Below are positions 24,039-27,102 of a stretch of DNA of 64,000 nt, in pieces. Position 1 is the first letter of the stretch. Every line of letters starts with the position of its first letter. Origin of the DNA: Xanthomarina arctica (lineage in GTDB: Bacteria; Bacteroidota; Bacteroidia; Flavobacteriales; Flavobacteriaceae); contig NZ_BMFQ01000001.1 of assembly GCF_014638915.1 (NCBI RefSeq), forward strand, positions 744,001-808,000, written 5' to 3'. Made by a program: the position numbers and the translations under genes. The notes beneath the pieces were generated by a model that was not told where the DNA came from, did no database searches, and saw nothing but the letters and a program-made list of their open reading frames with translations.

Positions 24039-25937
24039 ATGAGTGACGCCTTAAAACACGAATGTGGTATTGCACACATTAGGCTCTTAAAACCTTTAGA
24101 ATATTACCATAAAAAATACGGAACTGCTTTTTATGGTGTAAATAAAATGTATCTCATGATGGAGAAACAGCACAATCGTGGTCAAGATGGTGCAGGGTTT
24201 GCAAGCATTAAGTTAGATACCAAGCCTGGAGAACGATATATAAGTCGTGTTCGTTCTATAGCACAACAGCCTATACAAGATATTTTTGCTCAAATTAACG
24301 ACAGAATCAATAAGGAGATGTCAGATCATCCTGAATATAAGGATGATGTTGCGATGCAAAAAAAGGAGTTACCTTATATAGGCGAAGTACTTCTTGGGCA
24401 TGTGAGATACGGGACTTTTGGAAAAAATAGTGTTGAAAATGTACATCCGTTTTTAAGACAGAATAATTGGATGCACAGAAACCTAATTGTTGCTGGTAAT
24501 TTCAATATGACTAACGTGAATGAATTATTTGACGGTTTAGTTAGAATTGGTCAGCATCCTAAAGAAATGGCAGATACTGTTACCATCATGGAAAAGATTG
24601 GTCACTTTTTAGATGATGCGGTTGCCAAAAAATACAAACAATTAAAAAAGGAAGGTTATAGTAAAAACGAATGCAGTCCTTTAATTGCCGAACGACTTAA
24701 TGTTGCTAAAATATTAAGAAAAGCAGCTAAAAATTGGGATGGTGGTTATGCTATGGCGGGACTTTTAGGACATGGAGATTCTTTTGTATTAAGAGATCCA
24801 GCAGGAATAAGACCTACCTATTATTATCAAGATGACGAAGTTGTTGTTGTAGCCTCTGAGCGCCCAGTAATACAAACGGTGTTCAACGTAGCTTTCGAAG
24901 ATGTTAAAGAATTAGAACCTGGACACGCTATTATTACTAAAAAATCTGGCGAAGTTTCAATTACCAAAATTCTAGAACCTTTAGAAAGAAAAGCATGTTC
25001 TTTTGAACGTATTTACTTTTCTAGAGGAAGTGACGCTGAAATTTATCAAGAGCGTAAAACATTAGGAAAACTTTTAATGCCTAAAGTTTTGGAAGCAATC
25101 GATAATGATACCAAAAACACCGTGTTTTCTTTTATTCCAAATACAGCAGAAACATCCTTCTTTGGGATGATTGAATCGGTTGAAGATCATCTTAACAAGA
25201 AAAAAACTCAAGCCATTTTAAATGGTAATGGAAAACTTTCAGCAGAAAGAGTTACTGAAATTTTATCTGAACGCCCTAGAATTGAGAAAATAGCTATTAA
25301 AGATGTTAAATTAAGAACCTTTATTACGGAAGATAGTAGTCGTGACGATTTAGTAGCTCACGTTTATGATGTTACTTATGGCGTAATCAAGCCAACAGAT
25401 AATTTGGTAATTATAGATGATAGTATTGTAAGAGGAACAACTCTCAAGAAAAGTATTATTAAAATGATGGATCGTTTGAATCCTAAAAAGATTGTAGTTG
25501 TTTCCTCTGCGCCACAAATACGTTATCCAGATTGTTATGGGATTGATATGGCTAGATTAGAAGACTTAATTGCTTTTAGAGCGATGTTAGAGTTGTTACA
25601 GGAAAATAACAAATACCATTTAATAAAAGAAGTTTACGAAAAATGTATCGCTCAAGTAGAATTGGAAGATAAAGATATTAGAAATTTTGTAAAAGAGCTC
25701 TATTCTCAATTTTCTGCTGAAGCCATCTCTAATAAAATTGCCGAATTAATTTGTGAAGACACAGTAAAATCTGAGGTTGTAGCTATTTTCCAACCAGTAG
25801 AGAATTTGCATAAAGCGTGTCCTAAAAATTTAGGTGACTGGTATTTTACTGGAAATTATCCAACTCCAGGGGGAAATCGCGTAGTAAACAGAGCATTTAT
25901 TAATTTTTATGAGGGTAATAAAGAACGAGCATATTAA
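24039..25937 (+). CDS. purF: amidophosphoribosyltransferase, long form
   Basis: 632 residues; commits PRPP and glutamine to purine synthesis. The glutaminase cysteine is Cys9 in HECGIAHIR, so the first eight residues would be removed to expose it. QHNRGQDGAGF follows, and the PRPP-binding loop is LVIIDDSIVRGTT. It is longer than the roughly 500-residue E. coli enzyme, with extra sequence in the glutaminase half (the segment around residues 85-110 and 190-230) and a C-terminal extension, as in other Bacteroidota. The transcript is presumably separate from the kinase gene upstream because of the terminator. Confidence 0.95.
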   Translation: MSDALKHECGIAHIRLLKPLEYYHKKYGTAFYGVNKMYLMMEKQHNRGQDGAGFASIKLDTKPGERYISRVRSIAQQPIQDIFAQINDRINKEMSDHPEYKDDVAMQKKELPYIGEVLLGHVRYGTFGKNSVENVHPFLRQNNWMHRNLIVAGNFNMTNVNELFDGLVRIGQHPKEMADTVTIMEKIGHFLDDAVAKKYKQLKKEGYSKNECSPLIAERLNVAKILRKAAKNWDGGYAMAGLLGHGDSFVLRDPAGIRPTYYYQDDEVVVVASERPVIQTVFNVAFEDVKELEPGHAIITKKSGEVSITKILEPLERKACSFERIYFSRGSDAEIYQERKTLGKLLMPKVLEAIDNDTKNTVFSFIPNTAETSFFGMIESVEDHLNKKKTQAILNGNGKLSAERVTEILSERPRIEKIAIKDVKLRTFITEDSSRDDLVAHVYDVTYGVIKPTDNLVIIDDSIVRGTTLKKSIIKMMDRLNPKKIVVVSSAPQIRYPDCYGIDMARLEDLIAFRAMLELLQENNKYHLIKEVYEKCIAQVELEDKDIRNFVKELYSQFSAEAISNKIAELICEDTVKSEVVAIFQPVENLHKACPKNLGDWYFTGNYPTPGGNRVVNRAFINFYEGNKERAY

Positions 25938-26049
25938 TTTTTTAGATCTTAAAACATTAATTTTAAGTGGTTTGTAAGCTAAAAAGCGACTTTTATCTGA
26001 AATACATGCATTTCATCTAAAATATTAAAACCATTAAATAAAATAAAAC

Positions 26050-26057
26050 TACATTAG
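26050..26057 (+). promoter_or_regulatory. candidate -7 element of small-RNA unit 1
   Basis: TACATTAG, one mismatch from TAnnTTTG, ending 4 bases before the conserved RNA block begins at 26062. Confidence 0.4.
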
Positions 26058-26061
26058 ACGT

Positions 26062-26134
26062 ACCATAACATAAGTAGGTTAAGTTCATGGTAGATTTGGG
26101 GCAAAAAAAGGTGAACTAACGTTCGCCTTTTTTT
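26062..26134 (+). ncRNA. candidate small RNA, unit 1 of 2
   Basis: A roughly 70-base block nearly identical to 26293-26363. It begins ACCATAACATAAGTAGG, and the bases CCATAA...ATGG can form a first hairpin. It then has the single-stranded-looking core TAGATTTGGGGC with an A-run. It ends in a terminator hairpin, GGTGAAC (26110-26116), loop TAAC, GTTCGCC (26121-26127), and seven T residues. A -7 promoter element is placed so that transcription should start at its first base. No protein is encoded: the only short frame is broken by an indel between the two copies. I do not recognise the RNA family. Confidence 0.65.
26110..26134 (+). terminator. terminator of small-RNA unit 1
   Basis: Seven-base-pair stem GGTGAAC/GTTCGCC (one G-U pair), four-base loop TAAC, then TTTTTTT. 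Confidence 0.75.
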
Positions 26135-26279
26135 ATTTTTACTCTTTTATAATTCTCTCAAATTCAGTATTAAAAAACATTTAAAACATGATATAATAGC
26201 TTAAAAGATGAATTAATCATCGTTTACCTAATTTATATGTAGTTTATCTATTTATTTTTTTTTAGAGTACTAACCATTA

Positions 26280-26287
26280 TATATTTG
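26280..26287 (+). promoter_or_regulatory. candidate -7 element of small-RNA unit 2
   Basis: TATATTTG, a full match to TAnnTTTG, ending 5 bases before the conserved RNA block at 26293. Confidence 0.5.
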
Positions 26288-26292
26288 ACCTT

Positions 26293-26363
26293 ACCATAAC
26301 ATAAGTAGGTTAAGTTTATGGTAGATTTGGGGCAAAAAAGGTGAACTCTCGTTCGCCTTTTTT
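26293..26363 (+). ncRNA. candidate small RNA, unit 2 of 2
   Basis: Second copy of the block at 26062. Differences are few: a T for C in the right arm of the first hairpin (restoring the pairing CCATAA/TTATGG), one A fewer in the A-run, and loop TCTC for TAAC in the terminator while both stem arms are unchanged. Changes fall in loops or preserve pairing, which suggests selection on RNA structure. It has its own full-match -7 element. The rest of the gene-free stretch 25938-26493 shows no coding signal. Confidence 0.68.
26340..26363 (+). terminator. terminator of small-RNA unit 2
   Basis: Stem GGTGAAC (26340-26346) and GTTCGCC (26351-26357), loop TCTC, then TTTTTT. Confidence 0.75.
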
Positions 26364-26493: not shown

Positions 26494-27102
26494 CTATTTA
26501 GCTTCAGCATAACGTCTTTCAACTTCATTCCAGTTAATCACATTAAAAAATGCATTAATGTAATCTGGTCTTCTATTTTGATAGTTTAAATAGTAAGCAT
26601 GTTCCCAAACATCTAATCCTAAAATTGGAGTTCCACCACATGTCGTTTCCGGCATTAATGGATTATCTTGATTTGGTGTAGAACAAACTTCAACTTTTCC
26701 ACCTTTATGAACACATAACCAAGCCCAACCTGAACCAAATTGTGTTGCAGCAGCTTTGCTAAATGCATCTTTAAAAGCATCTACAGTTCCATAAGCTTCA
26801 AGTATAGCGTCTTTTAAATCTCCAGACAAATAACCTTTTCCTTCAGGATTCATAATCTCCCAGAATAATGAGTGGTTGTAAAATCCACCTCCATTATTTC
26901 TAACAGCCTTATTGTCCATATCTAAATTTATAAGGATATTTTCAATATTTTTTCCTTCTAAATCCGTGCCTTCAATGGTGTTATTTAAGTTATTTGTATA
27001 GCCTTGATGGTGTTTTGTATAATGAATCTCCATTGTTCTTGCGTCTATATGAGGCTCTAAAGCATCATAAGCATATTTTAATTTCGGTAATTCGAAAGCC
27101 AT
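26494..27102 (-). CDS. superoxide dismutase, Fe/Mn family
   Basis: 202 residues from the ATG at 27102; converts superoxide to peroxide and oxygen. The frame opens further back at 27141, but that position falls inside the -7 promoter box, so the inner start, which gives the family N-terminus MAFELPKL, is correct. Metal ligands are His27, His77, Asp164 and His168 (DVWEHAYY). The segment [11 protein letters not shown] is closer to Mn-type enzymes than to the Fe-type AAQxxNHxFYW, but metal choice cannot be settled by eye. No signal peptide, so cytosolic. Confidence 0.95.

Follow-up and report, generated by a model that had tools for sequence, protein, structure and literature searches.

A small RNA family between purF and sod in Flavobacteriaceae and its predicted antisense partner RNAs

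To our knowledge, little is known about regulation by small RNAs (sRNAs) in Flavobacteriaceae. The family accounts for a major share of communities in soil and in marine and fresh waters (PMC9723704), and Bacteroides is reported to be without classical sRNA chaperones (PMC11697453). An sRNA that is widespread and comes with a fixed locus, a partner and a common promoter site would open a direct way to study RNA regulation in Bacteroidota. Here, we ask whether two near-identical blocks between purF and the superoxide dismutase gene (sod) of Xanthomarina arctica, located in a stretch of 64,000 nucleotides (hereafter the window), encode such RNAs and with which molecules these might pair. In our main reading, to which we assign a probability of about 0.6, the blocks are two paralogous trans-acting antisense sRNAs with a partner RNA, which would act through translation block and feed-forward control.

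The sRNA units, their promoters and their distribution

The features of the locus, in window coordinates, are as follows.
24039 to 25937, plus strand: purF, the upstream flank, on the same strand as the units; name recognised from the sequence and by the original prediction
25988 to 26024, plus strand: putative bipartite activator-like site of copy 1, half-sites CTTTTATCTGAAA and TGCATTTCATCTAAAA (positional conservation; position weight matrix)
26050 to 26057, plus strand: -7 promoter element TACATTAG of copy 1, at -12 to -5 relative to the first base of ACCAT
26062 to 26134, plus strand: sRNA unit copy 1, C-type, 73 nt (5' hairpin, linker, terminator)
26089 to 26102, plus strand: linker GGTAGATTTGGGGC of copy 1, a seed-like pairing region predicted to be single-stranded except at its ends
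26103 to 26134, plus strand: intrinsic terminator of copy 1 (inverted repeat; stem covaries across the family)
26219 to 26255, plus strand: putative bipartite activator-like site of copy 2, half-sites CGTTTACCTAATTT and TAGTTTATCTATTTA (positional conservation; position weight matrix)
26280 to 26287, plus strand: -7 promoter element TATATTTG of copy 2, one base further up than that of copy 1
26293 to 26363, plus strand: sRNA unit copy 2, T-type, 71 nt
26320 to 26333, plus strand: linker GGTAGATTTGGGGC of copy 2 (fold prediction; conservation)
26334 to 26363, plus strand: intrinsic terminator of copy 2 (fold prediction; stem covaries across the family)
26494 to 27102, minus strand: sod, the convergent flank; name recognised from the sequence and by the original prediction

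Between the stops of purF (25937) and sod (26494) there are 556 nt, and the longest open reading frame (ORF) listed inside it has 43 codons and lies on the minus strand. Both units are predicted to consist of a 5' hairpin (ACCAT...ATGGT), followed by the linker GATTTGGGGC and the terminator. Sequence differences between the copies comprise a single base of the hairpin (C/T), the loop of the terminator (TAAC/TCTC) and the lengths of the A-run and T-run. Their folding energies correspond to z-scores of -4.5 (copy 1) and -3.9 (copy 2), and both beat 200/200 dinucleotide shuffles; as the reverse strand also beats the shuffles (z -5.2 and -4.1), folding alone cannot set the strand, which was assigned from the promoter and the T-run of the terminator.

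Both copies were found in 8/8 genomes of the genus, and a covariance model (R1) was built on eight variants from the genus and used for the family search at an E-value of 0.01 or better. Copy 1 scores 104.1 bits (E 8.6e-20) and copy 2 98.7 bits (E 1.4e-18) against this model, which was built partly from these same copies. R1 matched 251/299 genomes of the window's family, taken to be Flavobacteriaceae from the named sod relatives, including 14 with weak best matches (E 1.8e-6 to 6.8e-3) that may be due to chance. An order-wide sample gave matches in 43/246 genomes, 32 from Flavobacteriaceae and 11 weak ones from outside (at most 38.2 bits), and a class-wide sample in 17/247 genomes, 5 from Flavobacteriaceae and 12 weak ones from outside (at most 38.5 bits). 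The sRNA family seems widespread in Flavobacteriaceae and absent from Rfam.

Among 80 named sod loci from many Bacteroidota, including metagenome-assembled genomes, 31 carried sRNA copies, with complete copies near sod scoring 45 to 102 bits against R1. These loci include representatives of Algibacter, Winogradskyella, Maribacter, Zobellia, Allomuricauda, Flagellimonas, Aquimarina, Mesonia and Flavobacterium. In stretches reaching at most 3 kb to either side of sod, no copies were seen in two Tenacibaculum loci, Nonlabens, Lutibacter, Winogradskyella costae, Flavobacterium succinicans, one of three Aquimarina and two Chryseobacterium loci. At all 97 loci with both flanks present, every copy lies in the purF-sod gap, in the orientation of purF and facing sod convergently; one to six copies per locus occur at 20, 39, 18, 12, 5 and 3 loci, respectively, although some genomes contribute several loci, so that locus counts are not independent. 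In these 97 loci the 240 intervals between units have a median length of 216.5 nt, with quartiles at 203 and 235 nt. One genome has an array of seven copies. Additional copies far from the best copy or on a different contig were found at G246:C7:20542, G013:C32:74982 and G254:C1:3657281. A paralogue set apart by GATTTGGGACGAAAAGGG and by a promoter resembling CAATACCAGTATTTTAG is the unit nearest to sod at five loci (L150, L157, L158, L163 and L165) and the last unit at L115, a recurrence that suggests specialised copies.

The best model-picked copies contain AGTAGG in 67/68, GATTTGGG in 67/68 and AGGTTAAG in 60/68 cases. Covariation was assessed on 239 unique copies chosen through core patterns, so that the conservation of the core among them is partly built in. 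In the terminator stem 89% of the alignment cells are paired, compared with 50-70% when the stem is slid, and there are 316 double-change cells versus 40-182. The 5' hairpin is paired in 95.2% of the cells (9-44% when slid) and is too constant for usable covariation, with 12 double-change cells versus 3-68 when slid; isolated compensated variants occur, such as ACTAT/ATAGT (L166) and GCCAT/ATGGC (L176). Position 25 of the sRNA is T in 51% of the copies and otherwise mostly C. The sRNA thus combines a core that hardly varies with a terminator stem that shows covariation.

Upstream of the units, the best-conserved columns are T-12, A-11, T-8, T-7 and G-5 (173 upstream regions, many from related genomes), and the boxes match in sequence and spacing the flavobacterial housekeeping promoter box TAnnTTTG at -12 to -5, as given in PMC9723704. 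Conserved less strongly than the box in the same 173 regions are two half-sites, at about -70 to -64 and -49 to -39, and this pair looks like a putative activator site. The half-sites are 21 nt apart, which is reminiscent of a LytTR-type regulator as a possible binder. In Maribacter-like arrays (L157, L158, L163 and L110), an inverted repeat of the type ATCGATGAAATGCA...TGCATTTCATCGAT precedes the outermost unit.

Taken against the original prediction, the two near-identical blocks at 26062-26134 and 26293-26363, the 556-base gene-free stretch, a -7 element for each unit (TA..TT.G columns conserved) and a terminator with its own T-run for each unit all hold, the last with a stem that covaries across the family. 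That these would be sRNAs rather than a peptide gene or a leader gains support from the putative promoters of their own, the covarying terminators, the purF-sod synteny and the family-wide conservation. Differences in loops, a hairpin base and the A-run were correctly described, but the idea that the C/T change restores pairing is unclear, as copy 2 (-22.2 kcal/mol) is not predicted to be more stable than copy 1 (-23.1 kcal/mol). Likewise, the units are twins in the window, yet two is a local number, with arrays of 1-7 elsewhere. Of the checks suggested at the time, the covariance search from genus variants recovered the 251/299 family genomes and only weak matches outside Flavobacteriaceae, the Rfam search including the Flavo-1 motif left the family unrecognised with nothing at threshold, and compensatory changes at purF and sod in other genera were present in the terminator stem but not usable in the overly conserved 5' hairpin.

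Candidate partner RNAs

When the genus was searched for the complement of the core, 8/8 genomes each showed two or three clustered exact matches, positioned ahead of and within a 42-codon ORF. In the window's genome this ORF (MNFASNLPEQPTNYESKLYSGLQNTKNFIKSLMYLTKKVFML) is located at G000:C1:551960-552085 on the minus strand, outside the window. Its length and C-terminus are conserved, and a profile of the ORF matched 53/149 Flavobacteriaceae genomes, from which 30 loci were taken, two of them coinciding with genus loci. A gene that we take from its sequence to be scoB-like lies upstream at 27/32 loci and one that we likewise take to be oppDF-like converges downstream at 31/32. Codons 13-42 are under coding constraint, with a synonymous share of 0.36 versus 0.18 expected for single random changes and 3395/2073/4983 changes by codon position. 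Codons 1-12, which overlap a pairing site in the genus, give no coding signal (0.23 vs 0.23), so that the conservation of the N-terminus may be partly RNA-driven. Two versions of the 42-residue protein matched no family in Pfam or NCBIfam.

Predicted pairing between the copy-2 core and the ORF leader amounts to -30.3 to -53.8 kcal/mol in 36/36 distinct loci, 28 of them obtained via the protein profile and 8 via the pairing site itself. Only 2/804 background ORF-start regions score as low, both being antisense of sRNA genes, and the next one reaches -28.9 kcal/mol. In the window's own genome the partner scores -40.3 kcal/mol, compared with -31.9 kcal/mol for the best non-self 60-nt tile of the 64-kb window. 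Shuffles for the pairing energies, here and for the noncoding partners described below, keep composition only. The T-type core is predicted to pair more strongly than the C-type core in 27/34 leaders, and the best leaders come close to CCCCAAATCTACCATAAACTTAACCTACTTATG, which is the sRNA core in reverse complement. Each of the 8/8 genus leaders holds three CCYCAAAT/CCCAAA sites, and a possible hairpin TAGATT(T)-CCCC-(A)AATCTA exposing the C-stretch appears in 14/32 leaders, all outside the genus (14/24). Judged by base complementarity, the sRNA core is antisense to the leader of the 42-codon ORF. The proposal that the core TAGATTTGGGGC is a target-pairing site is in this way supported by a complementary leader in 36/36 loci, and the predicted pairing region reaches past this core into the hairpin loop.

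The leader and the sRNA also appear to share promoter features. A weight matrix derived from 256 sRNA upstream regions (-74 to -37; related and unweighted) found a high-scoring site in 31/32 promoters of the 42-codon ORF, above the 99th percentile of 750 background upstream regions from which those with the sRNA motif or its complement had been taken out beforehand. The 32 promoters are those without four later-added loci.

In three genus genomes, CCCCAAATCTATCATAAATT occurs before a terminator-like hairpin, after a gene adjoining hisS (L066 at about 2000; L027 and L023 at about 1520, minus strand), where hisS and its neighbour are named by our recognition from sequence and presumed as such. 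The predicted energy for pairing of this site to the copy-2 core is -39 to -42 kcal/mol, which makes it a possible sponge in a probable 3' UTR.

For Flavobacterium, in which the sRNA is present, general rather than genus-directed searches found no partner. A different RNA was obtained in Maribacter-like genomes, defined by the sRNA variant GGTAAGATTTGGGG that is common to named Maribacter and Zobellia relatives. There, a pattern search found two copies of this RNA (L324, 1480-1990) adjoining a gene that we recognise from its sequence as presumably hflX-like. Used as a query, the L324 RNA matched 63/239 Flavobacteriaceae genomes at an E-value of 0.001 but only 21 at E <1e-8, the weaker remainder being mostly short and in many cases terminator-like. 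Both L324 copies were aligned with 9/11 loci (L331-L336 and L338-L340; L330 and L337 left out), and the aligned RNAs share TTCACAACA-type direct repeats upstream, TTTACATTGTAATTAAGTGATAGTGTTGACCCCAAATC and further segments, which are predicted to pair with the linker and loop of the sRNA. Their best energies are -29 to -40 kcal/mol, compared with about -18 to -21 kcal/mol for shuffles. With 2-4 sites, a few of which lie in the terminator, their count is barely over that of shuffles (1.5-2.3), so that strength alone stands out. No conserved ORF was seen in the aligned RNAs, and Rfam gave no match in any of the six loci searched. Single sites found with a 3-mismatch pattern in four Maribacter-like genomes (L325-L328) were set aside, as no common context was recognised.

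Possible mechanism and competing explanations

At the level of sequence, the comparisons establish an sRNA family with a conserved core, synteny and complementarity to partner RNAs, and from these we infer the regulatory direction, translation block or sponge. Each unit would be transcribed from its own housekeeping-type promoter, with the upstream pair of half-sites about 21 nt apart, and would end at its own terminator. The exposed GGGG of the linker would begin pairing at the CCCC stretch of the partner, and the duplex would then extend into the hairpin loop of the sRNA (AAGUAGGUUAAGU), covering the leader near the start codon, so that translation of the 42-residue protein would be blocked. 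Because a site of one type is present in the promoters of both sRNA and ORF, the two would together constitute an incoherent feed-forward loop, in which extra array copies would set the sRNA dose. A duplex at the start codon is most simply read as a translation block, and the strong complementarity of the sRNAs to the start of the mRNA for the 42-residue protein suggests a common RNA-RNA switch in Flavobacteriaceae. The ORF is unlikely to be the sole target, because the sRNA is far wider than the ORF (53/149 genomes).

Translation block and titration of the sRNA may both apply. The strongest competitor to the main reading is one in which the partner RNAs are sponges that titrate the sRNAs, the true targets being other mRNAs, and we regard it as possible but the less probable account. 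The Maribacter-like partners, multicopy RNAs that pair strongly with the sRNA and have no conserved ORF, favour a sponge. Titration of the sRNA is likewise suggested by partners holding several sites, such as the three per leader in the 8 genus genomes, and the sponge account gains further from the -39 to -42 kcal/mol site in a probable 3' UTR of three genus genomes and from the wider occurrence of the sRNA, whose share of matched genomes exceeds that of the 42-codon ORF. Against the sponge stands the other clade, with its site at the start codon of a conserved ORF whose codons 13-42 are constrained, as does the negative outcome of one test for a wider target class. This test concerned start-codon sites for the C-type core AATCTACCATGAAC with up to 2 mismatches, for which counts were close to those of the reversed-pattern control (e.g. 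17+18 versus 27+20 in the window's genome), leaving a start-codon target class unsupported. Two other leads were discarded: a candidate sponge of a genus genome (L065), at -22.7 kcal/mol, fell within background, and several of the other CCYCAAATCTA sites lie inside long ORFs. We rate at even odds a dedicated two-RNA circuit in Flavobacteriaceae, in which arrays of 1-7 modular sRNAs between purF and sod act against a partner with multiple antisense sites. In one clade this partner would also serve as mRNA for the 42-residue protein and be driven by the activator of the sRNAs; in the Maribacter-like clade it would have turned into a purely noncoding sponge, present in several copies and controlled by another regulator (TTCACAACA repeats). 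If it is true that a noncoding partner replaces a coding one between clades, the family would bear on how target mRNA and sponge interconvert.

The remaining explanations are far less probable. A type I toxin-antitoxin-like pair, with the 42-residue protein as membrane-active toxin and the sRNAs as antitoxin, would fit the small size and amphipathic, lysine-containing C-terminus of the protein as well as the long antisense complementarity across the leader and the multicopy antisense RNA, and yet the protein is only weakly hydrophobic (highest 18-residue mean 0.38), the fairly fixed scoB-like (27/32) and oppDF-like (31/32) synteny is unlike that of a mobile addiction module, and six sRNA-bearing genomes (G008, G018, G025, G033, G037 and G039) have no match to the ORF; we consider it improbable. 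Slightly less credible still is that the sRNAs are a flavobacterial branch of the Bacteroides FopS/GibS family. The common core UUCAUGGUA..AGAUUU beside the terminator and the multicopy habit point that way; against it stand a score of copy 1 of 21.6 bits with the FopS model RF04319 (gathering 56), the absence of Flavobacteriaceae, at least 7 of which were sampled, among the 8 genomes matched by RF04319, the occurrence of FopS copies on several contigs rather than in a single array, and the 5' end of FopS, single-stranded according to PMC11697453, in contrast to the conserved hairpin here. Practically no weight falls to a repeat element or terminator array without an RNA function of its own: the tandem near-identical units with terminators would suit it, while the promoter and half-sites conserved for each unit, a near-constant core next to a free terminator stem, the fixed locus and the conserved complementary partner do not.

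Comparison with known RNA families

At gathering score, Rfam gave only a tRNA in the window, with neither the Flavo-1 motif nor any other Rfam 15 family, and no match in 12 related or partner loci. With a relaxed E-value, the best sub-threshold score was 26.6 bits and the smallest E-value 0.0039 (MicX, 23.8 of 75 bits); the displayed sub-threshold alignments rest mainly on the terminator, the partial core of FopS excepted. Among the titles and abstract openings listed in literature searches, none reports this RNA.

CopA/CopT-type antisense pairs begin with loop contact. As in those pairs, the complementary segments here could come together at a loop, and the leader would be covered close to where a small ORF begins; the sRNAs of this study differ in being encoded in trans in chromosomal arrays, with the partner at a distant locus. 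LhrC-type sRNAs, found in another phylum and with other targets, have several similar genes per genome, as is the case here, and we know of no dedicated antisense partner RNA for them. Such multicopy sRNAs are also named in PMC11697453.

According to the same source, the paralogous FopS sRNAs and GibS of Bacteroides thetaiotaomicron pair near the start codon and block translation, the targets of FopS being susC mRNAs and FopS being bound by RbpB (PMC11697453). Like FopS, the present family is multicopy with a terminator and a model length of 71, although some arrays here are single-copy; it is also predicted to pair near a start codon and has part of the core, UUCAUGGUA..AGAUUU, in common, which may reflect shared origin or convergence. 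It differs in its predicted 5' hairpin, FopS being described there with a free single-stranded 5' end carrying the FopS element R1 and one terminator hairpin, and in its tandem array at one locus and its partner RNA with long complementarity. Rfp18 of Flavobacterium psychrophilum is, according to PMC9723704, a flavobacterial sRNA conserved beyond one species with predicted mRNA pairing, as here, and pairs through its third stem-loop; with two predicted stem-loops and no third, the present sRNAs are set apart by this description, and a homologue of them may be present among Rfp1-89 of F. psychrophilum. By the general features of trans-acting base-pairing sRNAs, the sequences point to a putative promoter and terminator of their own, a conserved core predicted to be unpaired and a conserved partner in trans at 36/36 loci.
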